DNA of 46,630 nucleotides from Bacteroidota bacterium (GTDB lineage Bacteria > Bacteroidota > JABWAT01): assembly GCA_017303995.1 (NCBI GenBank), contig JAFLBE010000034.1:1-46630 (forward strand), written 5' to 3'. The number at the start of each line of letters is the position of its first letter. Position 1 is the first letter of the stretch. This document shows positions 12,734 through 30,454 of this stretch, piece after piece. Position numbers and translations under genes: made by a program. Under the pieces are notes generated by a model that was not told where the DNA came from, did not search any database, and saw only the letters and a list, made by a program, of their open reading frames with translations.

Positions 12734-15052
12734 AATAATTTAAAAGACATAGATATATGGGAATCAAACTTTGGTTTACTCCCAATTAAGTTAAATCCGC
12801 TTAACCAAGTAGACAAGTTTCTTATGCTCAATGGTGGGCAAGGCGATTTCTGTTTGAAAACATCTGCGAAAGGAGACGAAAATCACAGCACAATATTTGG
12901 GGAATCTTGGTCGACAAACACAAAAAATTTTTTATTTATTGATGTAGATTCTGTTGAAGTGGTTAATTGGTTTGAAGGTAAAACAGAAAACATTCCAAAC
13001 AAAAAGATAGAATTTAACTTAGGACAATTTTACAAGTACCTTTCTTCTAAGTCTCATAAAACACAAAATGATGTAGTCCCCTTCATTCTTGATATTTTCA
13101 GACAACTTAGAAACATAACTTTTGAAAAACAAGATTCATCAGAAGCTATCAATCTACTCTTTACATTGCTAATAAGCCTTGATGAAGACATTTCAAATAT
13201 AGATTATAAAAAATGGAACATATCAGAATCCAAAATTCCTGATAGGTTTGACTACTTTGTTGAGCGTTTAAATCAAGGAGTAAGAAACATTAAGCCTAAT
13301 CTTGATTTAATTCTTCGTCATACAGCAGGCATACTATTTCAAGAAGCTCATCGCGAAGTAATTTACTTTAATCCACAAAGAGACTTATTTGGCGGTGTTT
13401 CAAGTAAATTAGAAACTAGATTAGATGCTTATTCTAGCATTCATTACACTCCTCAATATATTGCTAGGAGTATAGTTGAAAATACAATAAAGAACTTGGA
13501 TTTAACTAAGCCTAATATTACAATTCTTGACCCTTCATGTGGCTCATCTGAGTTTTTAATAGAAGTTTTAAAACAGCTAAAAAATAAAGATTACAAAGGA
13601 AAAATTTCCATAAAAGGTTTTGATTCTTCTGATAGTGCCATAAGAACGTCTAGTTTCCTTTTATCATATGAAAACCGTAAACAATGGAAAAATGAATTGA
13701 CAATTGAAGTAAAACGAGTAGAAGATTCATTAGTAGAAGATTGGGGGGAAAATGATTTAATATTAATGAATCCACCCTTCCTCTCTTGGGAATTATTAAA
13801 GGAGAAAAGTAGTCGAGATAATGTATTAAATATTTTGAATGAAGTTGTTAGAAGAAGTAGACCAAATCAAGCAACGGCATTCTTTTATAAGGCAAGCCAA
13901 TCATTATCAAATAATGGTATTATTGGTTGTGTTTTACCTACCTCAATTTTTTATTCTGAAATTTACTCTGACCTTAGAAATAAAATAGGGGAAGATTTGA
14001 ATTTTAAGATTTTGGCTAAACTAGGAAATTATGTATTTGAAGACGCATTAACAGATGTAAGTTTATTTATTGCAATAAAGAATCATTCAGTTCAACTTCC
14101 AAAAGTTTTATGGACAAAAAATGAAAAAGGAGTTGTTCAAGACGCTTTGAGAGAGTTTAGAAAAATGAATGCCAATAATGAGCTTTCAATAAACAGTAAA
14201 AACTTTAGTATTTACACACCACATTATTTCCCAATTGTTAACAATAGTTGGAAGTTAATTTCATTTGATGAAAATGAATTCATTAAAGAAGTAAGTATTT
14301 ATCATATAGCAGGAAAATTATCAACCATTGGTGATATTTTCGATATTTGGCAGGGAGCTTTATTAGGAGTAAAAAACGTTTTTAAAATAACGTCAGCAGA
14401 ATATGAATTATTATCAGAACCAGATAGAAAATTATTCAGACCAATACTAACGAACAACTCAATAAAGTTAGGAAAAATACTAATAACCGAATATAGTTGG
14501 TTTCCTTATAGAAATGAAGGCTTGATATTCAAAAATGAGCATGAATTGTTATGCTTGGATTTTTACCACACAAGATTGTTACCAAACAAAGATATACTTG
14601 AGAAAAGAAAAGGTGTAAATCAATGGTGGTCATTAACTAGACCAAGGAATTGGCAATTCCCTAAAGAATCAAGACTATATTCAAATAGATTTGGCAACTC
14701 CAATTCCTTTGCATTTGATAAAGAAGGAAATTGCATTATCGAAGAAGGAAATGCTTTTATTCCTAAAAAGGAATTTACCATCAACGATTATTACTTTTAT
14801 TTGGCTTGCTTTAGCAGTAATATTTTTGACTTACTACTCTCTGTATATTCAAAACCAATAATGTCGGGTTTTGATTTGGGTAATATTCAAATTAAAAATA
14901 TTCCAATTCCAAATATTCATAAAGATAATTTGAAATTGAGTGGTGTATATTTAAAATTGGTTGAATTAGGTAAAGAATTAGAAAGTGGAAATTCATTTGT
15001 TAAGCCTGTTATAGATGATATTCTAAAATCCTACTTTTATCCAAATAGATAG
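12731..15052 (+). CDS. N6-adenine DNA methyltransferase with specificity domain
   Basis: 773-aa class I SAM-dependent DNA methyltransferase. The SAM-binding motif is DPSCGSSEFL (from residue 267) and the catalytic motif is NPPF (347-350), diagnostic for N6-adenine modification. IGCVLPTSIFYSE is a later core motif. The last 250 residues (IGDIFDIWQGALLGVKNVFKI onward, with TRPRNWQFP) resemble the target-recognition domain of TaqI/Eco57I-type enzymes, so it should choose its own site. No PD-(D/E)xK nuclease motif is evident in the first 200 residues. It is much richer in A+T than its neighbours, with many AAA, ATT and TTA codons, which points to horizontal transfer. GTG start chosen because the next ATG is 31 codons in. 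The 208-aa gene follows after 4 bp. Confidence 0.82.
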   Translation: MNNLKDIDIWESNFGLLPIKLNPLNQVDKFLMLNGGQGDFCLKTSAKGDENHSTIFGESWSTNTKNFLFIDVDSVEVVNWFEGKTENIPNKKIEFNLGQFYKYLSSKSHKTQNDVVPFILDIFRQLRNITFEKQDSSEAINLLFTLLISLDEDISNIDYKKWNISESKIPDRFDYFVERLNQGVRNIKPNLDLILRHTAGILFQEAHREVIYFNPQRDLFGGVSSKLETRLDAYSSIHYTPQYIARSIVENTIKNLDLTKPNITILDPSCGSSEFLIEVLKQLKNKDYKGKISIKGFDSSDSAIRTSSFLLSYENRKQWKNELTIEVKRVEDSLVEDWGENDLILMNPPFLSWELLKEKSSRDNVLNILNEVVRRSRPNQATAFFYKASQSLSNNGIIGCVLPTSIFYSEIYSDLRNKIGEDLNFKILAKLGNYVFEDALTDVSLFIAIKNHSVQLPKVLWTKNEKGVVQDALREFRKMNANNELSINSKNFSIYTPHYFPIVNNSWKLISFDENEFIKEVSIYHIAGKLSTIGDIFDIWQGALLGVKNVFKITSAEYELLSEPDRKLFRPILTNNSIKLGKILITEYSWFPYRNEGLIFKNEHELLCLDFYHTRLLPNKDILEKRKGVNQWWSLTRPRNWQFPKESRLYSNRFGNSNSFAFDKEGNCIIEEGNAFIPKKEFTINDYYFYLACFSSNIFDLLLSVYSKPIMSGFDLGNIQIKNIPIPNIHKDNLKLSGVYLKLVELGKELESGNSFVKPVIDDILKSYFYPNR

Positions 15053-15056
15053 AATT

Positions 15057-15683
15057 ATGAGTGATTATCTTGGTATCGTTGAAGCAATAAACAAGGATTG
15101 TAGGAATTATGTTGAAAATTTTAAATTAATTGAAGTTCCTGGGTATTATAACATTACATTATTCAAAATTGTAGGTAATTCATTTGCAATAAACAGATAT
15201 AATTCAGAGCCGGTCAAAGTTCAAAGATGGTTTGACAAATATTGGTTGTATATAGAAGTTAAATTTACTGGTCAAGAATCAAAACATGGGCAAAAGCGAA
15301 TTAAAACAATTCATACTAATATTTCAATTTCAGTTTTTGAAGGTGATGATTCAGATGAAGTGAAAATTCAACTCTTTAGAGCTGAATGGGACGATTGGAA
15401 TGACCCTGAACATAATCACTCCCAACCACATTGGCATATTACATCAAGTCAAGCGATTGAGAAAACAATTGAAGAATATTCAATTCATTTTGATAATGGT
15501 GATTTTATTTCACTCTTAGAAGACCAAAAATCAAAGCTATCCGATATCAAAAAAATTCATTTTGCGATGAATGGAAATTGGCAATACGACCAGACCCATA
15601 TTCATTCCATTAAAAGTTCAAACCAAGTATCCAAATGGCTTAAAGGACTATTAAATCACATCAGAGTAGAGCTAGAAAAATAA
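15057..15683 (+). CDS. Unknown 208-aa protein paired with the methyltransferase
   Basis: I do not recognise this family with confidence. The protein is cytosolic (no signal peptide) and acidic. It has a conserved-looking His/Trp-rich core: RAEWDDWNDPEHNHSQPHWHI (about residues 103-123), then IHFAMNGNW and THIHSI. Such clustered His and acidic residues could bind a metal, but no HNH, GIY-YIG or PD-(D/E)xK motif is clear. Its position 4 bp after a solitary methyltransferase, with the same low GC, suggests it is the functional partner, perhaps a restriction or regulatory subunit. That is inference from context only. Confidence 0.7.
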   Translation: MSDYLGIVEAINKDCRNYVENFKLIEVPGYYNITLFKIVGNSFAINRYNSEPVKVQRWFDKYWLYIEVKFTGQESKHGQKRIKTIHTNISISVFEGDDSDEVKIQLFRAEWDDWNDPEHNHSQPHWHITSSQAIEKTIEEYSIHFDNGDFISLLEDQKSKLSDIKKIHFAMNGNWQYDQTHIHSIKSSNQVSKWLKGLLNHIRVELEK

Positions 15684-16048: not shown

Positions 16049-19000
16049 CTAAAACAACCAGTTCGCCTGAAGGTTTACAAGATTGGACCGGTAAAGCCTG
16101 CTGGTTGAGAGTTCAGTTCCTGCTGAGACAGTAAATCTGGGAAAGGGTTCCCAACCCATTCGTAAGGAAGCTTCTGCAAACGCACCCTGGCGGTTACTGC
16201 CCTTCATGAGTACTTCAGAAAAAACGGACCAATATTCCCATCCCCTTTCAATTCGTAATCCGGCACCCGCAATCAGCCAATTATCAGGCGTCCAGTAAGG
16301 TTGGGCACTTGCGTATATTTTTCCTGAATTCAACCAACCGGCATCCAGAAGCGGGCGCCACGACAGACCAACTAATGTGTCGGGTGAAAAGAGATACCGT
16401 GAGGTTATAGTCGAAACCCAGTTATTGTCTGTGTACCACTCCAGCTTGGAACCGCCTGTTAAAAGGTGAGAAGAAAAAACCTTCAATTCACCGTATCCTT
16501 CAAGATCAGCCACATAAATATTTGACCGGATGGCAGTTTGGATGTATTCAGGTTCAAAATTGGTTTTCAACACATAAAAGAGTGTATCTCCCTTTGCACG
16601 GTTGAAAGACAGGGTAACTTCCGGGTAAACTTTTGAGCCGTTGGTGGCGATTCCACCTTTCATATCCAGCCATTTTCGGTTTTCTTCGATTATCCAGGAA
16701 GGTTGATAGCTCACCCGGTAGTAGGCATCCTGAATGGTTTCGGTGCTGATAACCGATTTCACGCTTATCCAGTCGGCACCAATTCCGTGTACAAAAGTCC
16801 GGCGGTCACCCCAGGTCACTTTACTTTTCCAGAGCCATTCTTCGTTTTTAAAATTGTCGCCAATCCAGGTGAGACCCGCTTCAGCATAAACACCGTTGAT
16901 CTTCAATTCTTCTTCCCTTAATTCACTTCTTTTTTCCGCTGAAAAAACAGAAGCATAGTTGGTTTTTAAAGGAACCAGATTTTTCCAGTAAACCTGATCG
17001 AGTTTCTGGCGGTATTGCAATTGCTGCAGCTGAGTTACACTTTCAGAGGGAATTGCTTGATATCTTTCCAGACTTTGCTTGTAAAATCCAGATTCAAGTA
17101 AGTGGGTGGCAACCCTGTATTCCAGCGAATCATCATCAGGATGGCGTGTGAAATACTGGTCAGCAGTTTTGATGTACTCTGCCATTCGGTTTGATTCACG
17201 CAACCAGTCAAGATAGGTCACAATTTCAAAATTTCTGGCTTTTTCTGCCCAGGCAAGGGCAAGAGTTTTATTGTTTCCGCTCCAGGCATAAAGCAGTGCA
17301 ATTTCTTCTGCAAGCGGAATTAGCTGGGGATGGCTGTGTGCAGGAAAGGATAAAAACCAGCTAAAACTTTCGGTGGGTTTATCATACCAGAACGACCGCT
17401 GAAGTGCATACCGGTACAAACTGTCACTTTTTGGATGATTTGCAATAAGTTCGTTTAAAAAAGCCTTTGTTTTTGGCCAGCTGTCTTCATCCTGGTTTTC
17501 AGCGGAATAGGCACTTTTCAAAGCCAGTGAATCTGGATAAACCGAAAGTTTTCTAAGCAGCCACCGTTTTCTCACAACCGGATCAGTTTGCGGGGATCTG
17601 GAATCAAAATAATCTACCAGTTTAAGAGTAGAATCGGTAGGGAATTGTGCCCAGCGCATTTCAGCCAAAGACCAGAGTTCATCAGTTTTATCTTCCCATT
17701 GGGTATAAGTCGTGTACCGTTCAGCGTCTTTTTCGATCCAGCCGTTCAACGAAAGTAATTTGGTTCTGAGTAAATCGAGAGCATGCTGAAGCTGTCCGAA
17801 TTCAACACTCAAAGAAATGATGTTTTCGGTATTTTTGGGATCATTTTTTCCCCTTTTCAGGGAATTCAGGGCATTGGCAAGGCGGGTATCTTTCCAGGTT
17901 GAGTTAACGGTAAAGTCCTGTGTATACTTTTTAAATTCGGCACTGGCCTGGTTCTGAGCGGCAAGAACAGCCGTTGGGTTGACCTTGTGAATTTTGTGAA
18001 GTTCTGGAAGGTCAAACCTTTTGGTTTCCGTTTTCATCATCACCCAGAATCCATCCCAATGTTTTTCAAAGTGGAATCCGGGAGCAAATTCTCTCAACTT
18101 TTTAAAAATCAGAGAGGTGTCTTCTTTGGTAACGAACATGCCGTAAAAATCTTCTTTGTTTTCACTGAGGATGTGAAAACGGTTTACAGAATCCATCGGT
18201 TGCACGGCAAGTTTCATATTTCGCCAGTTTTTCACGATCGGAGCGGCATCTCTGGCGGGTAAAAACCTGATGAGCGGGAAGCGGGATTTTATATCAACAA
18301 TTCGTTTTCTGAACTCACCGTACAAATTTTTTGGGTTTCCGGGTGTATTTTTCCACCAGAGTCCTTCACTGTTACGGCTTAAAAATTGGTCTTCATCCCG
18401 CTGGAGTTCCTGAAAAACATCATCCGGGTGAACAAAATGTGTCCAGATTCCGGTCAGGATGTACATACCTTCCTGATTGTACCGTGACTCATCTTCGAAC
18501 AAATACCCTGACGTGATACGTGGATAATCAAAAAATTGAGGATGGTAAGGTTCTGGGTCAAATTCCCGGTTTCCGCCTTCTTTCAGATCACCGAGATATA
18601 GTGAACTAAAAACCTTCAGTGAACTCATTTGTCTGGCCAGAATCGGGATGCAAACTGAATCGGCTTCATTGGTTGGCGGAACGAACGTTGATGGCATGAC
18701 GCCCAGTCCGTCGAGAATCCATCTTTTTTCTACGGATTGAATTGCCATGGCCAGGAATTCAGGATTAGGCCAGTCACGCTGCATAAATGAAAAGTGGTTG
18801 TAGCCGTGAAAGCCCAGTTCATGCCGTGACCCTGCAACCTCTTTTGCGAGGTTCACACTTCCGTTTTCGACGGTTCCATTTTCAATGATCTTTCCATTTT
18901 CCCATTCAGAATAGGGAAATGGCGGATTGTTATTGGCATTATAATTCATTGCCATCATAGCTGTATAAGCCAGATCAAACGTATCTGCCATCGCCTTGGT

Positions 19001-19843
19001 ATCTGGCCACCAGATATCATGGACAAAATGGGCGTGATTTTTATTATATTCTTTATCGGCCGGATGCATCATCGTGTTATACAGTGGTGCCGGAAAGTCA
19101 TCCAGAAAAATGGTTGAGGTGTTGGCAATCGGGTAGGGAATGCCGGGCAACCCGCGCAGAACGACAGAGAACAATAATCCACGGGCAACCTTGTCGTTCA
19201 TGGTTGAAGTGTTGAGGTAAAAAACCTGACCTTTACCCACTTTTTTTCGTGTCAGCAACGGAATTGAAGGCTCTTTTAAGGACTTAAGGATGATTTCTGT
19301 TGAGGGTAGGAAGTCACGGCCTGAGAAACCACCATGAATAGGTGCGACAACCTTTCCATATTCAATTTTTTCAATACCTGGGAATACGTTCTCCTTGAAA
19401 ACCCAGCCACTTGTTTTATTATCGAGTGACATATCAGGTTTGGGTTTTAATCCGATCAGATAAAAAAGCCGGGTTTCGTAACTGGTTGCCGCAACCAGAA
19501 TAGTCCCGCCCCGGGCAGCAAAATCCACCAGAATCCTGAAATTGGTATCTTTCAATTTCGACAACTGATCGGTAGTGATCACGATTTCTTTAACTGATTC
19601 GGGGATTTCGATGCCGGTCAGAAGCAGAGACACATCGATGACCTTTACCCGGAATTTGGCATAGTCGGCTGATTTCATCAGGTTTTCGGTAATGCCCCGG
19701 CTGAGTTCATCTTTGCTGTTCATGATGACCATGAGCAAAGTGTTGTCTTTTTCTTCAGCAACGGGCGTAAAATTTTCAGTTCCCTGATCACAGGAAAGAA
19801 AAACAAGGGTTACAATCAGAAGAAAAACGAATCTGAGGGTCAT
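16049..19843 (-). CDS. PelA-type deacetylase (DUF2194) fused to PelB-like TPR and outer-membrane barrel
   Basis: 1264 aa. Residues 1-18 form a signal peptide ending in a lipobox-like VFLSC. Residues 30-235 resemble the glutamine-amidotransferase/reductase-like domain of DUF2194 and PelA proteins. Residues 240-540 are a polysaccharide deacetylase: metal ligands probably D248/D249 (TIFLDDF) and H346/H350 (GFHGYNH), with THFVHPDD (468-475) as a later motif. In Pel systems this domain partly removes acetyl groups from the N-acetyl-galactosamine-rich polymer. Residues 640-950 are helical, TPR-like repeats. Residues 970-1264 alternate as beta-strands and end NLQANWLF, as in an outer-membrane barrel, like PelB. 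In Pseudomonas these are two proteins. It overlaps the upstream gene by 4 bp and ends the operon; GAGGAG precedes the ATG. Domain limits are estimates. Confidence 0.82.
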   Translation of the reverse strand: MTLRFVFLLIVTLVFLSCDQGTENFTPVAEEKDNTLLMVIMNSKDELSRGITENLMKSADYAKFRVKVIDVSLLLTGIEIPESVKEIVITTDQLSKLKDTNFRILVDFAARGGTILVAATSYETRLFYLIGLKPKPDMSLDNKTSGWVFKENVFPGIEKIEYGKVVAPIHGGFSGRDFLPSTEIILKSLKEPSIPLLTRKKVGKGQVFYLNTSTMNDKVARGLLFSVVLRGLPGIPYPIANTSTIFLDDFPAPLYNTMMHPADKEYNKNHAHFVHDIWWPDTKAMADTFDLAYTAMMAMNYNANNNPPFPYSEWENGKIIENGTVENGSVNLAKEVAGSRHELGFHGYNHFSFMQRDWPNPEFLAMAIQSVEKRWILDGLGVMPSTFVPPTNEADSVCIPILARQMSSLKVFSSLYLGDLKEGGNREFDPEPYHPQFFDYPRITSGYLFEDESRYNQEGMYILTGIWTHFVHPDDVFQELQRDEDQFLSRNSEGLWWKNTPGNPKNLYGEFRKRIVDIKSRFPLIRFLPARDAAPIVKNWRNMKLAVQPMDSVNRFHILSENKEDFYGMFVTKEDTSLIFKKLREFAPGFHFEKHWDGFWVMMKTETKRFDLPELHKIHKVNPTAVLAAQNQASAEFKKYTQDFTVNSTWKDTRLANALNSLKRGKNDPKNTENIISLSVEFGQLQHALDLLRTKLLSLNGWIEKDAERYTTYTQWEDKTDELWSLAEMRWAQFPTDSTLKLVDYFDSRSPQTDPVVRKRWLLRKLSVYPDSLALKSAYSAENQDEDSWPKTKAFLNELIANHPKSDSLYRYALQRSFWYDKPTESFSWFLSFPAHSHPQLIPLAEEIALLYAWSGNNKTLALAWAEKARNFEIVTYLDWLRESNRMAEYIKTADQYFTRHPDDDSLEYRVATHLLESGFYKQSLERYQAIPSESVTQLQQLQYRQKLDQVYWKNLVPLKTNYASVFSAEKRSELREEELKINGVYAEAGLTWIGDNFKNEEWLWKSKVTWGDRRTFVHGIGADWISVKSVISTETIQDAYYRVSYQPSWIIEENRKWLDMKGGIATNGSKVYPEVTLSFNRAKGDTLFYVLKTNFEPEYIQTAIRSNIYVADLEGYGELKVFSSHLLTGGSKLEWYTDNNWVSTITSRYLFSPDTLVGLSWRPLLDAGWLNSGKIYASAQPYWTPDNWLIAGAGLRIERGWEYWSVFSEVLMKGSNRQGAFAEASLRMGWEPFPRFTVSAGTELSTSRLYRSNLVNLQANWLF

Positions 19844-21852
19844 GGCTTTTTCTCCTCATCAGTATTAAAGAGAATATCCAGCAGTTTCGATCCGTTTGGT
19901 TTATTAACCAATTCATAAACGATAACTGATTCATCCCGATAAAATTCTTCGATTTTCCGGCCAGGTAAGTTTGCGAAAGATTCAATCCATTGGGTGGTCT
20001 GCTGCATGACCAGAGGGGCATTATAAAGTACGCCATTCCCGATAGAGACAGAGGTTGGCTTTTCAACAAAAATAAAGATACTTGAAGGGGGAACGATAGG
20101 TTCGCGGGAATTGGATTTAGGGGCGTTCAGGTATTGGTGGTAGAGCGAATCCATAGTACCATACTCATTGAGAAAAAACTCGTAGTTCATGAAAAAGTGC
20201 CGGTTAAGTGCGAGATTTCTGTCAATTTCAGGGCTCACAGTGGCGTATGAATAGGCGAGACGACCTGCAATAATCTCATAATAAGCTTCAAAAAAACCAT
20301 TGGGCATGGTCGTGGGCAAGGTTCTCACGAAAGTAATGCCACCCTGAGCAAAAATCAGGACTGAAATAATAAGTACCGGAAGGATTTTTTCTGCATGCCA
20401 CTTAAAAATAGGTACAACATGACGGTTGATCATTGAAAAAATGACATAGAGAAATACAGAAAGCATCACCGGAATCAGGAAAGAATAGAATGCATTCAGT
20501 TGGTCGATGTCAACCCAGAAATACGCAATATTGAAAAAGGGAAGATAGATAAAGGCACCAACGGCAAAAGTGACAAACAGAAAAACATCATTCGACATAA
20601 ACGGCCGTTTTGCCAGGCGATTTCGGAGCATTGAAAGTGCGGCGCCAAGAAGTGCCAATAAAAAATAAACTGCTGAAAGAGATTCCAGCGGGAGAATAAG
20701 ACTGGGTGTATAACTGAACATGCTTGTAGAATAAAGCTGGGCAAGGAAAAAAGGCTCCAATTCCAGGTCATGGATATACAAACCAGTGAGATAAGTAATG
20801 AATACAAGTCCGAGCATGACGGAACTGTAAGTGAGCAGTTTCAATTTTCCTTTCAGGTTGGAAGGAATCAGAACAAGTTCAGTTACCAGAAAGGGAATCA
20901 GAATGATAAAAAGAACAAACAGATTACTGAGTCCGGTTGCAATAAATCCGGCAAGAATAAACGGAAACAGTTCTCTTTGGTTCAACCTGAGAAAACGGGT
21001 AATCCAGATGGCCGTGGGGATGGCAAAACACAGGGCAAAGTCGATGGTATTTGATTCAATCTGAAGTTCAAGTGAAAGCGGGGTGACCAACGTGGGAACG
21101 ATAGCATAAATTGCCGCACCCATCAGAGCAAGCCAGGTTCTGTAAAAGGTAACAAGTGATATCACCCACCAAATTAAAAAAGTGAGCAGCATTGCAACAA
21201 TACTTCCGAAGAGATGGAGCATCATTTCAGGACTTACCTGGGTCATGGCCGAAGCTACATTTATGAGGGAATGCATACCGAGCGGATCAACTGAGTTGAA
21301 AAAATATTCCTGAAGGTTCAGGTGCTTTACTTTTATCAGTTCCTGATACCAAAGCCGGGTGAAAGGAGCCGCATTTTCAATGGAGGGAACAATACGAATG
21401 GCACCTGCTGCGAGAATGATGACCAATAAAACACCAAAATAAAACTTGTCGGTTTGGTTTTCAGACTTTTTAGATGTCAGGCGTTTTTTGAGTTCTGCTT
21501 TGGTGAAAAAGGTTCGGAGTTCAATCAGTTTGATAATCTTGTTTACAAATGAGGTTTCAAGATTCCGGAATGGAATCATGATGCCCTTTTTGCGGTGAGT
21601 CCAGAAATATCTGAACAACGGTGCACCGAGAAGCAAAATGGCCATGCTGAACAAATCGTACATGTGCAGGGAAGTCAGCATGACAATCCCGCCCATAATG
21701 ATGCCGCCGATCCCCACCCAGGAAAGAATAAGCCGGTCAACAAATTTCATTTTTTTCAGTTCTGGAAACAGCAGGGGTGCGATGAATCCGTACAGAACAA
21801 AAAACCAGAGAAAAAGCCGGAAAATAGAAGTAATGGCGAGAAAAGTGTACAT
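19840..21852 (-). CDS. Large multi-pass membrane protein, possibly GT-C-like, of the Pel operon
   Basis: 670-aa integral inner-membrane protein with roughly 12-14 hydrophobic segments through residue about 500 and a soluble C-terminal part of about 150 residues. The segment APFTRLWYQELIKVKHLNLQEYFF...DPLGMHSL after the third or fourth helix looks like the first periplasmic loop of GT-C-fold membrane transferases. This is a resemblance only; no specific family is recognised. It sits where PelD or PelE might be expected but has neither a TPR nor a GAF/GGDEF domain. It could polymerise, decorate or translocate the polymer, or anchor the synthase. It starts 9 bp after the hydrolase gene and overlaps the fusion gene by 4 bp, so it is certainly part of the operon. 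Confidence 0.75.
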   Translation of the reverse strand: MYTFLAITSIFRLFLWFFVLYGFIAPLLFPELKKMKFVDRLILSWVGIGGIIMGGIVMLTSLHMYDLFSMAILLLGAPLFRYFWTHRKKGIMIPFRNLETSFVNKIIKLIELRTFFTKAELKKRLTSKKSENQTDKFYFGVLLVIILAAGAIRIVPSIENAAPFTRLWYQELIKVKHLNLQEYFFNSVDPLGMHSLINVASAMTQVSPEMMLHLFGSIVAMLLTFLIWWVISLVTFYRTWLALMGAAIYAIVPTLVTPLSLELQIESNTIDFALCFAIPTAIWITRFLRLNQRELFPFILAGFIATGLSNLFVLFIILIPFLVTELVLIPSNLKGKLKLLTYSSVMLGLVFITYLTGLYIHDLELEPFFLAQLYSTSMFSYTPSLILPLESLSAVYFLLALLGAALSMLRNRLAKRPFMSNDVFLFVTFAVGAFIYLPFFNIAYFWVDIDQLNAFYSFLIPVMLSVFLYVIFSMINRHVVPIFKWHAEKILPVLIISVLIFAQGGITFVRTLPTTMPNGFFEAYYEIIAGRLAYSYATVSPEIDRNLALNRHFFMNYEFFLNEYGTMDSLYHQYLNAPKSNSREPIVPPSSIFIFVEKPTSVSIGNGVLYNAPLVMQQTTQWIESFANLPGRKIEEFYRDESVIVYELVNKPNGSKLLDILFNTDEEKKP

Positions 21853-21861
21853 GAAGTCCTG

Positions 21862-22686
21862 TTAGTTGGTATCAGGAGGAAGAACCGGAAGTTCGTCCAA
21901 TGATATTTTACCAATAAAGTAGGGAAATGGAAAGTCGTTTAATCTGGATTGCAGACTGTCTGTGAGGTTTTCACGGTCTGAAAAATCAATCAGAAGAAAC
22001 GGCTTTTGATATTTTTCTGAGAGGTCAGTTATATTTTTTATTTTTTCACTGAAATCCTGCTCGTTTTCAAAGCGGTAAGACTGATCGGAAAACCGGTAAT
22101 CACTTGCAATATCTTCGATTGCAACCGCATTGATTGAAGAAGAAGTTTGATCGAGAAGAAAAAGTCCGGCATTTTGAATCAGAATGGCATCCGGATTTTG
22201 TTTCCGGATGGAATTGATCAGATCTGCCATATCTTTTTGTAGATTTTTGCGGGAGGTGTAAGGTGCAACGGCGTCGACCGTATCGAAAAATAATCCGTCA
22301 TACCCCGAAGCCATAATGTTTGGAATGATCCGGTCAAGAAAGAGTTGCCTCACAGACTTGTTTCCAATATTCAGAAAGTGACTGCCCCAATCTTCATTTT
22401 TCCCCAGCAGGTTACCCGTTGAATCTGCAAGCGGAAAGTACCACCGTGACGGATGAACTTCACCCAGACTTACATAGGCGATTACCTTCGCACCGCCTTC
22501 TTTCATTGCATCGATATCCAGTTTGGTGTAATGATCGGGTTCAACCACAACCAGCTTATAGTTCACAATATTTTCAGGGGTTAGTCGTGAATAGCAGATT
22601 CCAAACGGCCCAGGAATCTGGGTTGTGGTGTTGCAACCAGAAAGAAAAACCGACATCAAAATGCCGGCAAGGCCTGATTTATTCAT
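21862..22686 (-). CDS. PelA hydrolase-like lipoprotein (GH114/GH166-type TIM barrel)
   Basis: 274 aa with signal peptide and lipobox FLSGC (C18), so probably anchored in a membrane facing the periplasm. The rest matches the endo-alpha-1,4-polygalactosaminidase-like domain that forms the N-terminus of PelA. Visible motifs are VVVEPDHY (46-53), AYVSLGEV (70-77, E76), YDGLFFDTVD (129-138, with D135 and D138), IQNAG and AIEDIASD, which line the active-site end of the barrel. In Pel systems this domain cuts the galactosamine polymer and affects how much is released. Here it is an independent protein, whereas in Pseudomonas it is joined to the deacetylase. It overlaps the HD-domain gene by 4 bp. 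Confidence 0.85.
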   Translation of the reverse strand: MNKSGLAGILMSVFLSGCNTTTQIPGPFGICYSRLTPENIVNYKLVVVEPDHYTKLDIDAMKEGGAKVIAYVSLGEVHPSRWYFPLADSTGNLLGKNEDWGSHFLNIGNKSVRQLFLDRIIPNIMASGYDGLFFDTVDAVAPYTSRKNLQKDMADLINSIRKQNPDAILIQNAGLFLLDQTSSSINAVAIEDIASDYRFSDQSYRFENEQDFSEKIKNITDLSEKYQKPFLLIDFSDRENLTDSLQSRLNDFPFPYFIGKISLDELPVLPPDTN

Positions 22687-24314
22687 GGTTTCCCCAACTC
22701 AGATATGGATTTCCAGTCAGATTTGTTAATAATTGCAAGTAGTTCACTGACGAGGAATTTTTCGAATTGTTTTCCTGAACGGCGGTTGAGTTCGTTTATA
22801 AGCGACTGAACTTTTTCTGAATCTGAGTTTGAGTCATTTTCGTGATTTTCAACGAATTCTGACAGGAATTCACAGATCGAAACCAGCTTGCCCGTCCAGG
22901 GAATGTCGTCACCTTTCAGACCTTCGGGCATACCGCCACCATTAATCCACTCATGGTGTGATTTTATTCCTGCGGAAATAAGCGGATCAGAGCCCATCAT
23001 CTCTAAAATCAGGCTTCCCAAAACCGGGTGTTCCAGTTCTGCTTCGGTAGACAACTTTCGGTTAAGTGTTGCATAGGCAACCAGACCAATATCATGAAAC
23101 CGGGCAGTTGTAACAGCTATTTGCTTTTCTTCCGGTTTTAATTCCATCCGGTCAGAAAGAAGTGAAACAAGAGCCATCACACGGCGGGTATGGCCCGATT
23201 GGTTTCCTTTTCTGTTTTCCCAGGCAAGAATGAGCCGGAAAAAGAATTCAAGAACCGATTCATTCAGGCTTTTGAGTGATTCCTTAACCTTGATAACCGA
23301 AGAAGCTGCTTCATTGATATCAAAAGAAACCTGAGAATCGAGCAGATTCCGATATTGCAAAACAGACTTTTTCCGGCCAAGAACCAGAAAACTGATTGAA
23401 GAGGTGAAGTGATTAAACCGGATGAAAATATCAGTTAAACCTGCCTCTGAAATAATGGTTTCATCATTTACCTTCCAGCTTTTTGCTGTCGGGTCATAGG
23501 TCATAAGACCCGGATTCAGGATTGATGTACGTGCATTTTTTAGATTAGCAGGTACGCCTGATTCTGCTCTGATGATCCAGTCACCTCCGGTTAATTCGGC
23601 AATAAATCCCAAATCCGCCTGGCTGATTGCCAGATAATAATTGAGAATAAATTCAAGAATATCCTGATTTCCTGCTGTGTTGAAATTGAGTTTGGGAAGG
23701 TCTTTTTTGATTCCCTGAATAAATGACCCTGACTTTTTAATTTCGGAATCAACTATTTCAACCAGCCATTTTGAAAGCAATTTTGACAGAATTCCGGTTT
23801 TGGAAACCAAAACTGCAGGGTGCTGAACAAACGGACCAATCACATAAAAACCCCAAAGTTCACGGTTTTTAAAAAGGGGGATGAGTAAACATTTCCCGAT
23901 CGAAAGATCGGTCTGGTTATCTATCAGATACTTCGGGTCAAACGGGAATTGGCGCTCAAGATTTGAAAGCTGATCTTCGATTCCGGCCATGTATTCATTT
24001 TTTTGTCTGGATGATAAATTCTGAAAAGAATCTTCACTCAATTTACTGAAATGGTCGAGATTTCGGGTCAGAACCTGTTTGTAGGTTAGATCCAGATTCG
24101 GACTGTCGAGTAAATAGAAGGCATGCAGCAGACTTTTGTACGGACCATCAAGCCATTCAACAATCTGAAGAAAGGAAACCGGTTCTGTAAACGCAGCCAT
24201 ATCGGCGGCAGTTGCCCAGAATAAAGCTTCATCTTCAAGAGCAAAATCATCCATGACAAAAGATGATTTTAAGCGGGATGAAACCGTTTGCAGATAGTGA
24301 CTGAAATCTTTCAT
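22683..24314 (-). CDS. GAF-like/HD-GYP-type protein with altered signature, Pel operon
   Basis: 543 aa, no membrane segment seen. Residues about 70-345 look like one or two sensory domains of GAF type (GKCLLIPLFKNRELWGFYVIG at 140-160; DIFIRFNHFTSSISFLVLGRK at 295-315). Residues 355-500 are an HD domain: H375, H407-D408 (FHDIG), H429 and H453-H454-E455. The HD-GYP signature HHE-x-x-D-G-x-G-Y-P is here HHEWINGGGMP, so the Asp is Asn and the Tyr is Met. HD-GYP enzymes break down cyclic-di-GMP; the substitutions leave open whether this one is active, binds without cleaving, or acts on something else. Its location suggests it takes the regulatory role of PelD. Spacing to pelG is 12 bp. Confidence 0.82.
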   Translation of the reverse strand: MKDFSHYLQTVSSRLKSSFVMDDFALEDEALFWATAADMAAFTEPVSFLQIVEWLDGPYKSLLHAFYLLDSPNLDLTYKQVLTRNLDHFSKLSEDSFQNLSSRQKNEYMAGIEDQLSNLERQFPFDPKYLIDNQTDLSIGKCLLIPLFKNRELWGFYVIGPFVQHPAVLVSKTGILSKLLSKWLVEIVDSEIKKSGSFIQGIKKDLPKLNFNTAGNQDILEFILNYYLAISQADLGFIAELTGGDWIIRAESGVPANLKNARTSILNPGLMTYDPTAKSWKVNDETIISEAGLTDIFIRFNHFTSSISFLVLGRKKSVLQYRNLLDSQVSFDINEAASSVIKVKESLKSLNESVLEFFFRLILAWENRKGNQSGHTRRVMALVSLLSDRMELKPEEKQIAVTTARFHDIGLVAYATLNRKLSTEAELEHPVLGSLILEMMGSDPLISAGIKSHHEWINGGGMPEGLKGDDIPWTGKLVSICEFLSEFVENHENDSNSDSEKVQSLINELNRRSGKQFEKFLVSELLAIINKSDWKSISELGKP

Positions 24315-24326
24315 AGATTACCTGAA

Positions 24327-25940
24327 TCAGTATGCGGTGTAGTAGAAATAATCAAGTTTGGAAAAGAAACGGTGAACCCATTTCCAGGTCAGAAAAGCAA
24401 AAACGGCAGAACCAGCAATCAGACCCAGAACTGCATATTCATAAGAAATTGTACGGCTGCAAATGTAACCAACAACAAAATTCACAATGACGCCAATGAT
24501 CATGGCATTCATTGCAAAAGCAGCCCGGTTTAATGTGAAAAAAAACAAAGCGTGTAACAGACCAAAACACAACAGAATATACCCGATGCTTGCCAGCCAG
24601 TAAACCCGTATCGTAACCGGGTTATCAAAAAAGTCTCTCAGTTCCGGAATTCGGTCTTTGAACTGTTCTAGAGACATGACGGCAAAATAAACCAGTACCA
24701 TTGAGACAATACCAATAATGAGCAGAATCAATGCCTGACGGTAATAAAACCGTTTGAAGAATTTATTGAAATCTTCAACCTGATCAAATGAGGTTGCCTG
24801 CTGAACCGGAATAATAATTTTTGAAAAGCTGTGAATCGAATATTCAAGAACCGCAATCGTGAGCAGCAGAGTGATCAGGGCCCAATCCATGCCAAGTTCA
24901 TAAGGTGTGTTGAACCAAATAATATACGGTGGTGGGGGCGGACCCGCAGACCAGGCTAAAATCCGGTCAAGAAAAAGAAAGAAAAAATAAAGCGTTCCAT
25001 ATGCAAAAAAACGATAGGTGTTGAAAAACACAACTTCCGTTTTTGGCATTCTGGAAAGAGAAAAATCCTTTCTCATATTTTTGATTTTAAACCGGTAATA
25101 CGTCCAGCCATAACCAAACATAATGATGATCGAGACAGAAAGTCCGAGCCAGTGAGACAGGTAAATTCCCAGATTAAAAACTTCCATTCCAGTGATGACA
25201 AATGCAGTCCCAATGGCAATGCTCACGCTGATCATGAGCCGTTGTTCAGTGGCATAAAGTACTGCAGAACTTTGAATCAGCAAACTCAGCAGAATCATGT
25301 AAGTCATCGAAAGGAACATCATGGTCTGCGGGTAAAAAGGAATCACCAGATTGACTATAAAGAAAATCAGAGCAACTGAAAGCGTGGTCACAACACCGTT
25401 TCTGATGGTGTTTTTTGCCGCTTTATAAGCAAGCAGATAATTTCCTGACCCATTATAATAAGAGGCAAGTCTGCCCATAAGCTGGGTAAAACCTCCAGTG
25501 ACAACAAAAGCAGTGATCGTGCCCAAAGCCACAATCGTTGCCTGTGCTTCATTGAACCTTAGCCAGGCCCACAAAGAATACGTGAGGAAAATGACTGAAA
25601 GAATCTGAATGGCCATGGGCATGGCAAACAGGATTCCCTGGCTGTAATATTTGAAGAAATATTTGAACTCAGTTAGCGCCGTTACTTTGAAAAAATCCGT
25701 TTTTTTCTTTCCGTTTTTTTCGGTTTCTTCAATAATGAGAAGCCGGATGTCTTCATGAACCTGATCAGCGAGTTTGAAAACATCAGCAAATCCGTAATCG
25801 GCAACGGCATCCATATCTCTGACGCCGAGAGATTCAAGTGTGGCTGCTACTGCATAAACATTGATGGGATTGCCGATCAGAGTCCTGACTTCAAGTACCA
25901 AATTATCGTAAAGTTCCTTTTTCAGAGTTTCAGGCTGCAT
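24327..25940 (-). CDS. pelG: PelG-like polysaccharide transporter
   Basis: About 537 aa, a polytopic inner-membrane protein of the PelG family (MOP/Wzx-like flippases), the Pel component thought to move the nascent polymer across the cytoplasmic membrane with PelF. About 12 membrane segments follow a cytosolic N-terminus of about 100 residues. Family-like stretches are FKYYSQGILFAMPM, ATIVALGTITAFVVTGGFTQLMGRLASYYN and AYKAAKNTIRNG. I start at ATG 25940 (MQPETLKKELYDN), which has GGAG six bases upstream and overlaps pelF by 11 bp. The in-frame ATG at 25970 would add 10 residues from within pelF and lacks such support. Confidence 0.9.
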   Translation of the reverse strand: MQPETLKKELYDNLVLEVRTLIGNPINVYAVAATLESLGVRDMDAVADYGFADVFKLADQVHEDIRLLIIEETEKNGKKKTDFFKVTALTEFKYFFKYYSQGILFAMPMAIQILSVIFLTYSLWAWLRFNEAQATIVALGTITAFVVTGGFTQLMGRLASYYNGSGNYLLAYKAAKNTIRNGVVTTLSVALIFFIVNLVIPFYPQTMMFLSMTYMILLSLLIQSSAVLYATEQRLMISVSIAIGTAFVITGMEVFNLGIYLSHWLGLSVSIIIMFGYGWTYYRFKIKNMRKDFSLSRMPKTEVVFFNTYRFFAYGTLYFFFLFLDRILAWSAGPPPPPYIIWFNTPYELGMDWALITLLLTIAVLEYSIHSFSKIIIPVQQATSFDQVEDFNKFFKRFYYRQALILLIIGIVSMVLVYFAVMSLEQFKDRIPELRDFFDNPVTIRVYWLASIGYILLCFGLLHALFFFTLNRAAFAMNAMIIGVIVNFVVGYICSRTISYEYAVLGLIAGSAVFAFLTWKWVHRFFSKLDYFYYTAY

Positions 25941-27546
25941 CAGTTTCTCCGATTTCACCCAAACTTTCAAGGAATTTTCTCACGGATGGTAGTTTGACAC
26001 CATGCTTCAAAGGTTTGCCATTTACCTTGTGAAATTTCTGATAGCTTGATTTGTAGGCATCAACCGAAACTTCCGTCGTAAAATTAAGAAGCACTTTTTC
26101 ACGGCCTCTTTTTCCCATTTCATATCTGAGATCATCATCCCGTAAAAGCAAAATCACACCTTCAGAAAGTGAGACCGGATCCCGGGGTTTGCAGATGATT
26201 CCGCAATCCTCCAAAGCTTCACGGGTTCCGCCCACATCGGTAGCCACAACCGGCCGGGCACAACTCATCGATTCAATAACCGTGTAAGGAAATCCCTCAG
26301 AAATTGAAGTCAGAATAGAAATGTCACCTTCGTTGTAAATGCCGGGTGGATTGCTGTGAAATCCGCCAAAAGTGAAGTTTTGTTCTAATTTTAGCTCCTG
26401 GATCAGTTTTCTGCAGGTTTCAACGTAAGGTTTGTCGGCGTCAAGACTGCCATAAACCAAAAAGTGAACATCCGGAATTTCTTTCCTCACCAGATCACAG
26501 GTTCTGATCATGGTTTCAATATCTTTCAACGGGAAAACCCGGGCGGCAGCCACAACCGTTGGGCGTTTTGAAGTCGTTTCCGGTTTGGGTTTCGGGACAA
26601 ATACATTCGGGTCGATGCCATTGTAAATCACGGCGATACGATCTTCTGTAGCATCAAATTTCATTTCCCAGCGTCTGTTATAACTGGCAACTGGTGAAAT
26701 CTGATCGGCATGGGCATAAACGGCTCTCGTCATAAGAGTCGACATATCAACGAGAAATTTCTTCGCAAAAAAAGTAAATTCTGCCTGGCTGACAGCAATC
26801 AGTCTTTCGCGGATAAATACGCCGTGATCGGTTACAATCATGGGCGTTCCGTATTCATATTTGGCGACCAGAGACGGAATTCCCGCAAATCCGGCAAGTG
26901 TTGCATGAGAAACACTCGATGGCGGAACCGGAACTGCCAGTGGCATCATGAAGTGATAGAACCAGCGAAGTCCGAAAATCATGTCAAAAATATTGGGAAC
27001 TTCGAAGCCAGGTGTGTTTTTATACTGATTATAATCCTGAGAAACCCGGGTTTTGTAAATCTCCCAGATCATTGGGTGGGTCAGCGTCATTTTATAATCG
27101 TAATGACGGAAAAATTTCCAGAGACCGTAGACAATTTCCCCAATCGTTTCTGCCGGAAGGTACGGGTCGGCAAGTGCATCAAGAAGATCATAAAACATGG
27201 GACAGAATGATTTTTCAATGACCGACCAGGTTGTGGACATTTTCCGGTTGACCTGTTCGGAGAAGGGAGTTTCCGGATCAAAATACTCAGCAGGTTCTTC
27301 AGCGCCCCATAACGGAACGTGAATGGTTCCCTGAATATTTTTTCCAAGTTTGTAACGGCTTTCAACGTTCGGGTCGCCTGTAATGGCATAAAGAATGAAA
27401 TCACAACTTCCGTCCATTTCCTGACAAAGAATATGACTCCACGTCGAAACCCCGCCGCCGACAAACGGGTAAGTTCCCTCTGTTTCAAATAACACAACCG
27501 GTTGGGTGGGCTTGTTTTCCAGCCATTCCTTTTGGGTTCTGATCAA
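25930..27546 (-). CDS. pelF: PelF glycosyltransferase (GT4)
   Basis: 538 aa, cytosolic GT-B enzyme of family GT4; PelF is the polymerising transferase of the Pel pathway. The N-terminal DUF3492-type signature is EGTYPFVGGGVSTW (23-36), followed by DHGVFIRERL. The C-terminal nucleotide-sugar domain has ARVFPLKDIETMI, the E-x7-E motif in SEGFPYTVIES, and VVATDVGGTREAL. Length is near that of characterised PelF proteins (about 500). The start codon is TTG at 27546, overlapping the stop of the upstream gene (TTGA), and has AGGAG at a suitable distance. No alternative ATG exists before the conserved region. Confidence 0.93.
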   Translation of the reverse strand: MIRTQKEWLENKPTQPVVLFETEGTYPFVGGGVSTWSHILCQEMDGSCDFILYAITGDPNVESRYKLGKNIQGTIHVPLWGAEEPAEYFDPETPFSEQVNRKMSTTWSVIEKSFCPMFYDLLDALADPYLPAETIGEIVYGLWKFFRHYDYKMTLTHPMIWEIYKTRVSQDYNQYKNTPGFEVPNIFDMIFGLRWFYHFMMPLAVPVPPSSVSHATLAGFAGIPSLVAKYEYGTPMIVTDHGVFIRERLIAVSQAEFTFFAKKFLVDMSTLMTRAVYAHADQISPVASYNRRWEMKFDATEDRIAVIYNGIDPNVFVPKPKPETTSKRPTVVAAARVFPLKDIETMIRTCDLVRKEIPDVHFLVYGSLDADKPYVETCRKLIQELKLEQNFTFGGFHSNPPGIYNEGDISILTSISEGFPYTVIESMSCARPVVATDVGGTREALEDCGIICKPRDPVSLSEGVILLLRDDDLRYEMGKRGREKVLLNFTTEVSVDAYKSSYQKFHKVNGKPLKHGVKLPSVRKFLESLGEIGETDAA

Positions 27547-28724
27547 TTGGAAAACTCCTGAAATAGGTGCTCATACTGACCAAAAATAACTGGCCAGGTA
27601 TGGGCACGCACAATCTTGTTGTGACAGTCGATTTGCTCAGAAAGCCAACGATCTGAGTCAGAAATGATCGGTAAAATGCCAGCTAAAACATCCTGAACGC
27701 CAGATTCCTTTGGGAACGAAATGCCAAAACTCTCATTGAAATCACCCGCTTCCCATCCGAATGGGACAACTCCCCTTGCCATGGCTTCGAGCATCACCAG
27801 AGGTTGTGCTTCGCTGATGCTTGTCAAACAAAGGGCATCCATTTTGTCAAAATATGAACTGGCCGGTTGATTCCAAATTGCGGTAATAGTAGGAATCTGA
27901 CTAAGCCGTAACCTGACTTCTTCGTTCAGATCAGCCTCTCCGGCATCAGCAAGCAGCATGAGAAAACGCGGGTTCCATCCCTCTGTTTCTGACCACTTTT
28001 CGGCCAGATCAAGAAAACGGTGCGGATTTTTAAGATGAGCACAACGGCCAACCCAGCCAACGACCGGATCGTCGAAAACGGGGTGAAACTCAGGAACTGT
28101 ACTTACCATGCGGAAAGGAACACCATTTGGGATGTAGGTTGAGTTTTGTGCACCAAGTTCACTCTGAAAAACCTGATTGCAGACTGAAACTGAAAAAATC
28201 AGGGAGGATTGTTTATAGACTTCACGGGCAATTGACTGAAAAAACAAAGAAGCCAGATGACGTTCGGTTGGATTTGATGGAATGCGGTAGCCACATTCCA
28301 AAGCATCAGCGCCCAGTTCAATTTCCTTCCAGTAAACGCCGTGCTCGGTCAGAATCAGGGGAATCTCATCCCGTTTCGAAAGTGCGAGTCCTGCGAGTCC
28401 GGCAAGTCCGGTGTTCAAAACGTGGATAAAATTGGCCGGTTGTCTGGGGAGCAGTTCAAGAATGGAATCTGTCCATTTTTTCGGATCGGTTAAATCTTCT
28501 GGCGGATTAATTCTTGTAAAGGACTTCACATTTTCAGGAACCGGGTAAACACCCTCGGTTAATTCATACCCGGCATAATCATCAGTTGAAATCTGAATAA
28601 TATGAAAGTGGGCAGTGCGGAAATAGTCAAGATAATGACAGATCCATTCACTTACGCCACCACGGTACCAGGGAAAAGTTCCTTCAATGACTAAGGAAAT
28701 GGTTAACGGTGCTTGAGACGACAT
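27543..28724 (-). CDS. Short PelF-like glycosyltransferase paralogue (GT4)
   Basis: 393-aa GT-B transferase resembling PelF. It has the same opening signature, EGTFPWYRGGVSEW (14-27), TEHGVYWKEIELG in the N-terminal lobe, VGWVGRCAHLKNP in the linker to the second lobe, and the E-x7-E motif in SEAQPLVMLEA. It is about 145 residues shorter than the adjacent PelF. Both catalytic-type motifs persist, so it may be an active second transferase or a partner of PelF. The start at 28724 has only a weak AAAG upstream. It overlaps pelF by 4 bp. Confidence 0.85.
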   Translation of the reverse strand: MSSQAPLTISLVIEGTFPWYRGGVSEWICHYLDYFRTAHFHIIQISTDDYAGYELTEGVYPVPENVKSFTRINPPEDLTDPKKWTDSILELLPRQPANFIHVLNTGLAGLAGLALSKRDEIPLILTEHGVYWKEIELGADALECGYRIPSNPTERHLASLFFQSIAREVYKQSSLIFSVSVCNQVFQSELGAQNSTYIPNGVPFRMVSTVPEFHPVFDDPVVGWVGRCAHLKNPHRFLDLAEKWSETEGWNPRFLMLLADAGEADLNEEVRLRLSQIPTITAIWNQPASSYFDKMDALCLTSISEAQPLVMLEAMARGVVPFGWEAGDFNESFGISFPKESGVQDVLAGILPIISDSDRWLSEQIDCHNKIVRAHTWPVIFGQYEHLFQEFSN

Positions 28725-28750
28725 TTGGCTTTAAGAATTTAGTGAACAGA

Positions 28751-29596
28751 TCAGGAAACACCCGACGAAAAAACGGGGCCAACCTGACGGAAAATGGCTT
28801 CGATTTCGTTTTGTTGTTCTTTTGAAAAGGGTTGGGTTTTTAAAACAAGTAAAAAGGTTTCGGGGTATGAAGAACTTTCATCTCCGGAAGGCTTTATTAA
28901 TAAGTCCCTGCCCGATTTTAGTGTGACAGGAACAGCGATAACTCCTTCGGTTCCGGTCAGTTTGAGTGAAGGAAAATTGCCGGTTAAAGAAATACCCGAT
29001 AATTGATTTGCTGTGATGCCGATTTTACCCGCAGACGAAATTAACTGGAAAGTAGTCCCACTGCGTTCAATCAAGGCGAGTCCATCAATTTGTAAAGTGT
29101 TTGAAAGATAATCAGCCCAGGCAATCACGGTTTCACGGCGATTTTGGCCGGAACTGAGTTCTGTAAGTTCTGAAGCAACTTTAGAAAGGTTTTCAGCCGG
29201 AAGACTTTGGTCTGAAGATTTCTCTGGCTGGTTATCCAGGATCAAAGAATGGACACGGTTGAGAAGAAGTTGCCTGTTGATGGGTTTCAAGATGAAATCA
29301 GCAACACCGAAAGACTCAGCCTTTTTTTGTTTGTCTGATGAGGGAAGTCCGGTTAAGACCAGTACGGGAATGGATGAAAGTTCACTTTCAGATTTAAGCC
29401 GTTGAACAAATTCAAGGCCCGATTCGCCAGGTAAATTCAAATCGGTAATAACCAGATCAACCGGTTCATTTTTTAACAACTGAAAGGCTTCGGTTGTGTT
29501 AAAAGATTGAATAACCTCAAACTCTTTATCGAGCATAAATTTCAGAATAATCTGAATATTTGCATCATCATCAATGACCAGGATTCGGGCTTTCAT
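28751..29596 (-). CDS. Response regulator with receiver and GAF-like C-terminal domain
   Basis: 281 aa. Residues 1-120 are a complete receiver domain: acidic pocket D9-D10, phosphoacceptor D52 (VITDLNLPG), T82 and K104 (KPI). Residues about 140-281 lack a DNA-binding output; the segment AWADYLSNTLQIDGLALIERSG followed by strands (FQLISSAGKIG, GVIAVPVTLKSGRDLLIK) looks like a GAF-type sensing domain. It therefore probably signals through protein contact, plausibly to the HD-domain protein or Pel enzymes. AAGGA precedes the ATG. It is 26 bp from the glycosyltransferase gene and 234 bp from the first regulator. Confidence 0.82.
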   Translation of the reverse strand: MKARILVIDDDANIQIILKFMLDKEFEVIQSFNTTEAFQLLKNEPVDLVITDLNLPGESGLEFVQRLKSESELSSIPVLVLTGLPSSDKQKKAESFGVADFILKPINRQLLLNRVHSLILDNQPEKSSDQSLPAENLSKVASELTELSSGQNRRETVIAWADYLSNTLQIDGLALIERSGTTFQLISSAGKIGITANQLSGISLTGNFPSLKLTGTEGVIAVPVTLKSGRDLLIKPSGDESSSYPETFLLVLKTQPFSKEQQNEIEAIFRQVGPVFSSGVS

Positions 29597-29830
29597 AATA
29601 ATCCTTAGTTGGTGAGCAGAATAGTTTTAAACTGATTGTTATCTGACCGGATGGATTTTATTTCTGAAACCAAACGGGAAAGCGATACAGATTTTTATTT
29701 CAAACTGAGCAAAAAAACATTTTGGGATTACACTAAATTCTTTAAAGGATTGAAAATACATGGTTTAAAAAGGCCACAAATGAATACAAAAAGTAATAAG
29801 TCAGGAACAAAAGTAAATTTTTCTCCTGCT

Positions 29831-30454
29831 TTATTTTTCATTTTGCTGTCTTAGAAAGTCACCATAAAGTTGTTCTGTACAGGCCGGACAGATCCCGTGA
29901 GTAAAGGTTGCATGAGAATGATGCTCGATATAAGACTCTACCTGCTTCCAGTAACCCTTATCGTCTTTGATTTTTTTACATCCGGCACAGATCGGAAGTA
30001 AACCCCCAAGCGTTTTTTCCCGGGCAAGCGCTTCTCTCAATTCTTCAATTTTTTTCCGGTGAGAATCAATTTCCTGTTTGAGTCTGAGTGCTGATCCGGT
30101 TCGAGCGAGAAGTTCAATTGGCTCTAACGGTTGTCTGATAAAATCATTCACACCAGCTTCAAAAGCCTGCGTTAGAATATCGTCATCGGTGTGTCCGGTA
30201 ATGATCAGAACGGGAATATCTTCAAATGCGGGTGTTGATTTCAGAATCCGGCAGAGTTCAATGCCGTCCATTTCTGGCATTGAAATATCGGTAATGATCA
30301 GGTCAAACTGTTCATCGGGATGTCTGGACCTGATGAGTTTCAGGGCAAGCCGGCCATTTTCTGCTTCAGCTATTTCTGTGAACTTGTGAGGTTCCAGGAT
30401 GGTTTTAAAAATATCCCGGTTTAGCTGAACATCATCAATTATCAGAATCCGCAA
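29831..30454 (-). CDS. Response regulator with C-terminal Cys4 motif
   Basis: 207 aa. The receiver (1-120) has D7-D8 and phosphoacceptor D56 (IITDISMPEMDG), but the conserved Lys-Pro is replaced by Gln-Pro (FIRQP, Q108). A charged coiled-coil-like linker (KQEIDSHRKKIEELREALAREK) leads to LLPICAGCKKIKDDKGYWKQ and HGICPACTEQLY. The cysteines C156, C159, C189 and C192 could bind zinc. This tail is seen on many receiver- and PAS-containing proteins and its role is not established. The start is TTG at 30454 with AAAGGA eight bases upstream. It is the first gene of the Pel-like cluster, though the 234-bp gap downstream may hold another promoter. Confidence 0.82.
   Translation of the reverse strand: MRILIIDDVQLNRDIFKTILEPHKFTEIAEAENGRLALKLIRSRHPDEQFDLIITDISMPEMDGIELCRILKSTPAFEDIPVLIITGHTDDDILTQAFEAGVNDFIRQPLEPIELLARTGSALRLKQEIDSHRKKIEELREALAREKTLGGLLPICAGCKKIKDDKGYWKQVESYIEHHSHATFTHGICPACTEQLYGDFLRQQNEK

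Follow-up and report, generated by a model that had tools for sequence, protein, structure and literature searches.

A probable Pel-type exopolysaccharide operon with a predicted deacetylase-exporter fusion in a Bacteroidota bacterium

Synthesis of Pel, a sticky exopolysaccharide of biofilms, is normally switched on by c-di-GMP, for which PelD is the receptor. In Pseudomonas aeruginosa, the part of PelB to which PelA binds lies in the TPR region, and the exporters BcsC and PgaA function without extra lipoproteins such as PelC (PMC12141448). PelADA of Bacillus cereus is an alpha-1,4-GalNAc deacetylase which founded the families CE26 and CBM114 and is essential for Pel; the study that describes it, in which PDB entry 9zau is cited, calls the link of the inner-membrane Pel machinery to PelA, PelB and PelC unclear (PMC13254593). 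Gram-positives are already known to carry a distinct hydrolase gene next to pelADA (PMC7112168), and in Fusobacterium DUF2194 has been published to be down-regulated along with pelF and pelG. For Flavobacteriaceae, Balneolaceae (or Balneola) and Ignavibacteria we found no publication on Pel genes in the literature outside subscription papers and preprints, a scope that does not allow priority to be claimed firmly.

Here, we describe an operon from a Bacteroidota bacterium (assembly GCA_017303995.1), contained in a stretch of 46,630 nucleotides of contig JAFLBE010000034.1 that we refer to as the window. In our view the operon probably encodes a synthase-dependent Pel-type exopolysaccharide system, belonging to a lineage without a description in the literature searched, in which export is fused and two-component/GAF-HD control replaces PelD. 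Nine open reading frames, all on the minus strand and tightly packed, make up the region 16049-30454 (Table 1), in agreement with a preliminary description, made from the sequence alone, of a compact cluster containing PelF, PelG, a PelA-hydrolase-like lipoprotein and a deacetylase together with a large membrane protein and two receivers. Their 5' to 3' order is REC1, REC2, PelF2, PelF1, the PelG-like protein, the GAF/HD protein, the PelA-hydrolase-like lipoprotein, the membrane protein TM670 (670 aa) and the DUF2194-plus-barrel protein. Four of the eight junctions overlap (pelF2/pelF1, GAF-HD/hydrolase and TM670/DUF2194 by 4 bp, pelF1/pelG by 41 bp), and the others are gaps of 9, 12 and 26 bp and, as the widest, 234 bp between REC1 and REC2. 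Profile searches, structure prediction and a survey of gene order had been suggested as checks: Pfam and NCBIfam profiles matched PelF, DUF2194, GH114, HD and both receivers (PF00072), prediction for TM670 and for the C-terminal half of the fused protein gave a GT-C-like fold and a TPR-barrel exporter, and the complete nine-gene order was found to recur in at least seven Balneolaceae genomes, which rules out chance.

The operon adjoins an AT-rich island (window 12731-15683; 31-33% GC against about 43%). The island encodes an N6 DNA methylase (PF02384) as well as an ORF of 208 aa that matches no Pfam family, and it was probably acquired recently, as a module for restriction or defence. A secreted-looking DNA/RNA non-specific endonuclease (PF01223, 2.5e-55) is also encoded close to the operon, at 35456-36790.

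Table 1. Genes and domains of the operon, with positions in the window and the evidence for each assignment.
Feature	Position	Strand	Evidence
REC1, receiver domain and short C-terminal Cys-containing region	29831..30454	-	PF00072 9e-28
REC2, receiver, 281 aa, without recognised output domain	28751..29596	-	PF00072 8.4e-22; conserved in Balneolaceae
PelF2, short second PelF-like GT4 glycosyltransferase, 393 aa	27543..28724	-	NF038011 103.4 bits; motif alignment; tree
PelF1, GT4 glycosyltransferase, 538 aa	25930..27546	-	NF038011 161.6 bits; PF11997 8.9e-44; tree
PelG-like polytopic membrane protein, 547 aa	24327..25970	-	homologues pass PF16933; pelF1 overlap 41 bp
GAF/HD protein, 543 aa, modified HD-GYP domain	22683..24314	-	PF13487 1.8e-9; HD 3e-8; alignment of 26 members
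PelA-hydrolase-like GH114/GH166-type lipoprotein	21862..22686	-	GH114 2.9e-16; PDB PelA 5tcb 3.5e-16; lipobox LSGC
TM670, polytopic membrane protein, 670 aa, GT-C glycosyltransferase-like fold	19840..21852	-	AF2, Foldseek
Fused deacetylase-exporter lipoprotein, 1264 aa	16049..19843	-	DUF2194 1.7e-63; N-terminal lipobox; 62 aligned fused proteins
CBM114-CE26 deacetylase region, residues 36-552	18188..19738	-	PDB 9zau 1.5e-33
TPR-type helical solenoid, residues about 623-983	16895..17977	-	AF2; TPR profile matches
16-stranded outer-membrane beta-barrel, residues about 986-1263	16055..16888	-	AF2 pLDDT 90; Foldseek

The last gene of the operon joins a predicted deacetylase to a predicted outer-membrane exporter. 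The deacetylase region is homologous to Bacillus PelADA (PDB 9zau, 1.5e-33), and the catalytic residues D248, D249, H346, H350, P390, R442, H472 and D475, which correspond to PelADA D262, D263, H350, H354, P405, R458, H488 and D491, are all eight identical in 62 of 62 aligned fused proteins. Judged by this homology, the DUF2194 region is a deacetylase of the Gram-positive/Fusobacterium type (CE26, PelADA family) and not half of Pseudomonas PelA (CE21). The earlier notion that PelA has been split in two is thereby corrected to a PelADA-type deacetylase accompanied by a hydrolase on a separate protein. The proposed fusion of the deacetylase to a PelB-like barrel was borne out: an AlphaFold model of the C-terminal 694 residues, built with a 50-sequence alignment, reached a pLDDT of 90 and consists of about 20 helices followed by 16 main strands, and its top five Foldseek matches were three entries of BcsC, PelBC (9h80) and PgaA (4y25; TM-score 0.77 by target, 3.6 Å). 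A profile search of the same half independently matched TPR proteins. The window's protein carries the lipobox LSC at its N-terminus, and with a loose pattern a lipobox is found in 40 of the 62 fused members. In such a fusion the PelA-PelB contact would become covalent and permanent, and the arrangement is consistent with the absence of PelC.

Both transferases exceed the cut-off of 100 bits for the NCBIfam PelF equivalog NF038011 (161.6 bits for PelF1, 103.4 bits for PelF2), in support of the second PelF-like enzyme that had been postulated. In our tree PelF1 falls into a clade of cluster-bearing lineages, separate from canonical and Fusobacterium PelFs, while PelF2 forms a clade of its own; PelF1 is presumed to be the polymerase. 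The alignment shows that PelF2 retains the E-x7-E motif, and a suspected loss of this motif from Balneolaceae PelF2 was ruled out by its presence there. The PelG-like protein is about 90 aa longer than a canonical 455-aa PelG (locus L038) and has a conserved N-terminal extension. Its own profile search gave no match to Pfam PelG (PF16933, cut-off 29 bits), but Balneolaceae homologues that are about 50% identical to it lie above the cut-off (37.5 bits in genome G138, 32.2 bits in G190), and 17 of 55 family members match PF16933 at E 0.01. When the operon's family alignments were compared by hhalign with single canonical PelB-PelG proteins, only DUF2194 gave a match, and the PelG-like family profile did not align with the one canonical PelG used. 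Since hhalign is too insensitive for PelG, the assignment was made through the homologues that bridge to Pfam, and in the absence of an alignment with the lone canonical PelG we call the protein a divergent PelG and not a proven one.

The best PDB match of the hydrolase is Pseudomonas PelA (5tcb, 3.5e-16), ahead of TM1410. Its catalytic Glu191 aligns with PelA Glu218 and is Glu in 70 of 71 homologues, and D135 and D138 are present in all 71. Maribacter-type clusters encode an additional protein of 330-390 aa before pelF (L070:8819-9838, L073:8814-9881, L020:13352-14347), with a C-terminal match to GH114 that is restricted to the first half of the domain.

A search for PelD (PF16963) in the window's genome and its close relatives, covering genomes G000 and G002, gave no match, although it did match its positive control, a known PelD record. 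For PelC, a single-sequence search of the window's genome with a working positive control was negative, and the operon has no PelC-sized gene; within the operon, no family profile matches canonical or Cetobacterium PelE. The three proteins are thus not recognisable here, as had been claimed, genome-wide for PelC and PelD and at the level of the operon for PelE, and for this reason we place the operon outside the canonical pelABCDEFG type.

The lineage also occurs outside the window's genome. The closest named relative is an uncultured 'Bacteroidetes bacterium' (locus L041) whose PelF1 is 99% identical, and a five-gene core of pelF, pelG, hydrolase, TM670 and DUF2194/barrel is found in Flavobacteriaceae, including Flavobacterium, Maribacter, Aquimarina, Mesonia and Salegentibacter. 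In Ignavibacteria the fused protein has 1342 aa and is accompanied by GAF-phosphatase and GAF/HD genes of their own; an apparently shorter DUF2194 protein in that group (L067) was dismissed because the locus stops within the gene, which in its full length encodes the fused protein. Kryptonia, KSB1, Caldithrix and one Chloroflexota cluster encode a barrel-less deacetylase of 614-776 aa, so that deacetylase and barrel are not fused in every lineage. In the one locus checked, that of Kryptonia, the region downstream of the cluster showed no exporter gene, and a 487-526 aa gene of the KSB1 and Kryptonia clusters, considered as a detached barrel, was rejected as resembling an RsbU-type GAF-phosphatase. 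One KSB1 cluster contains a sugar-nucleotide epimerase gene.

Further observations concern neighbouring and more distant loci. In Aliifodinibius and a relative, a broken partial second copy of the operon lies just upstream of the intact one (L042; G366:C6:85327-86468), with short fragments of PelF, PelG and TM670 and, in L042, an apparently full-length hydrolase. On Deinococcus, Thermus and Streptomyces plasmids (L037, L133, L134, L137), PelF is followed immediately by an unannotated gene and has a gene for an endo-alpha-1,4-polygalactosaminidase in its neighbourhood, sugar-nucleotide genes being present in the Deinococcus and Streptomyces loci as well; these are apparently further unstudied pel-like clusters.

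The AlphaFold model of TM670 (pLDDT 86, pTM 0.88) returned nine Foldseek matches at probability 1.00, all of them GT-C enzymes or complexes containing one, including yeast and human oligosaccharyltransferase (STT3), AftA and AftD, with low global TM-scores (0.33-0.40). The model suggests that a GT-C fold is likely; one family member matches DUF6541. Among 394 genomes sampled from the window's phylum, the window's own relatives included, 26 give strong matches to TM670. The candidate catalytic position in the first periplasmic loop is Asp in 38 of 58 homologues, mainly Flavobacteriaceae, and Asn160 in the window, so TM670 may not be an active transferase. It could instead replace PelD/PelE structurally, serving as a membrane scaffold for PelF and PelG, a reading to which we give somewhat less than an even chance. 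Such a role would suit an operon for which PelC and PelD were not found and from which PelE is missing, and TM670 accompanies PelF-PelG-DUF2194 in diderms and Chloroflexota alike while its putative catalytic Asp is not conserved beyond the mainly flavobacterial group. However, the folds matched are specifically those of GT-C transferases, any other fold among the matches listed having a probability of at most 0.25, and Flavobacteriaceae keep the Asp. The conserved GT-C-fold protein and the two PelF types would also fit Pel-related enzymes whose product is not plain, partly deacetylated alpha-1,4-GalNAc but, for instance, a heteropolymer or a hexosamine polymer decorated by a GT-C enzyme, and the separate PelF1 clade and the divergent PelG point the same way. 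We lean against this possibility, because the enzymes closest to the hydrolase and the deacetylase act specifically on alpha-1,4-GalNAc chains and both proteins retain the active site, and the epimerase-family gene of the KSB1 cluster is compatible with a supply of UDP-GalNAc. From sequence, we infer that the product would be a galactosamine-rich polymer.

A related question is whether c-di-GMP controls the operon as in conventional Pel systems, with the GAF/HD protein substituting for PelD and binding c-di-GMP through its HD-GYP domain. The protein is related to HD-GYP c-di-GMP phosphodiesterases, and an alignment of 26 members shows that HD and most His ligands are kept, but G-x-P replaces GYP and the C-terminal metal Asp is changed to Glu. 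Both alterations are found in the window and in Balneolaceae, while GYP is intact in the Ignavibacteria version and in one from Chloroflexota and reads GFP in KSB1 and Kryptonia; a GAF domain was recognised in the KSB1 homologue. Six GGDEF matches in the window's own genome make c-di-GMP input possible there, and a Chloroflexota cluster includes a REC-GGDEF gene. On the other hand, GGDEF was not detected in 20 cluster-bearing Balneolaceae and Flavobacteriaceae genomes, among them Balneolaceae with the same operon, by a search that finds it in 8 of 14 named controls. This makes c-di-GMP control unlikely in those bacteria, in which the system probably runs without the nucleotide, and we consider a PelD substitute of this kind unlikely on the whole. 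In the preferred reading, the receivers and the GAF/HD protein would exert the control. The first cluster gene in Balneolaceae encodes a protein of 376-384 aa, which in the one tested (locus L018) is a REC-HisKA-HATPase. The KSB1, Kryptonia and Ignavibacteria clusters (L057:7635-13698, L061:8410-20636, L067) encode RsbU-like GAF-phosphatases, a REC protein and a GAF-HD protein, with STAS on the GAF-HD protein tested in L057 and a small HATPase in the Kryptonia cluster, a gene content that we read as a partner-switching type of control.

The fused TPR-barrel exporter, the lack of detectable PelC and PelD in the window's genome, the receivers and GAF/HD protein and the relatives without detectable GGDEF together support the initial proposal that the operon represents a Pel lineage distinct in export design and in regulation. 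We propose that PelF1, perhaps with PelF2, would polymerise UDP-HexNAc (probably UDP-GalNAc) in the cytoplasm, and that the divergent PelG and TM670 could move the chain across the inner membrane. The fused outer-membrane polypeptide may then take the chain directly, its CBM114-CE26 domain partly deacetylating it, its TPR solenoid guiding it and its 16-stranded barrel exporting it; as a single protein would deacetylate, guide and export, PelC and a separate PelA-PelB contact would not be needed. The PelA-hydrolase-like lipoprotein may trim or release chains, and the two receivers and the GAF/HD protein would set the output in place of the c-di-GMP receptor PelD. Only tentatively do we extend this proposal to a c-di-GMP-independent Pel branch, widespread in Bacteroidota, Balneolota and Ignavibacteria, in which a one-protein deacetylase-exporter acts together with a GT-C enzyme that decorates or hands over the chain, yielding a modified Pel polymer. 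A natural deacetylase-TPR-barrel fusion offers a single protein with which the coupling of deacetylation to export could be solved structurally. Moreover, with this lineage the range of Pel-type operons grows to include Flavobacteriaceae, Balneolaceae and Ignavibacteria, with culturable hosts in Flavobacterium and Maribacter, and the occurrence of such systems in genomes where no diguanylate cyclase was detected challenges c-di-GMP as the usual Pel switch in diderms.

Finally, the operon shares features with several described systems. Like P. aeruginosa pelABCDEFG, it encodes a PelF equivalog, a divergent PelG-like membrane protein and a PelA-like hydrolase with the catalytic Glu, and its predicted exporter resembles PelB in combining TPRs with a 16-stranded barrel. 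It differs in that the deacetylase is of the CE26/DUF2194 type and fused to the exporter, that the operon lacks PelE and searches for PelC and PelD gave no match, and that PelF2, TM670, the receivers and the GAF/HD protein are additional. With pelDE-ADA-FG of B. cereus it has in common the DUF2194 deacetylase (PelADA, CBM114-CE26), a separate hydrolase gene, PelF and, in divergent form, PelG (PMC7112168, PMC13254593), whereas that system has PelD and PelE, lacks an outer-membrane exporter and TM670, and its PelADA is a single-pass membrane protein. The pel cluster of Fusobacterium and Cetobacterium likewise unites GH114, DUF2194, PelF and PelG in a diderm (PMC9848294), but includes a PelD-like GAF protein and, at the place of PelE, a protein of 292 aa, and its DUF2194 protein, at 609-621 aa, is without a barrel. 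As in BcsC, PgaA and PelB, a TPR solenoid and a 16-stranded barrel are predicted for the fused protein described here; those exporters, as described, have no polysaccharide deacetylase domain on the same chain, whereas this protein has one.
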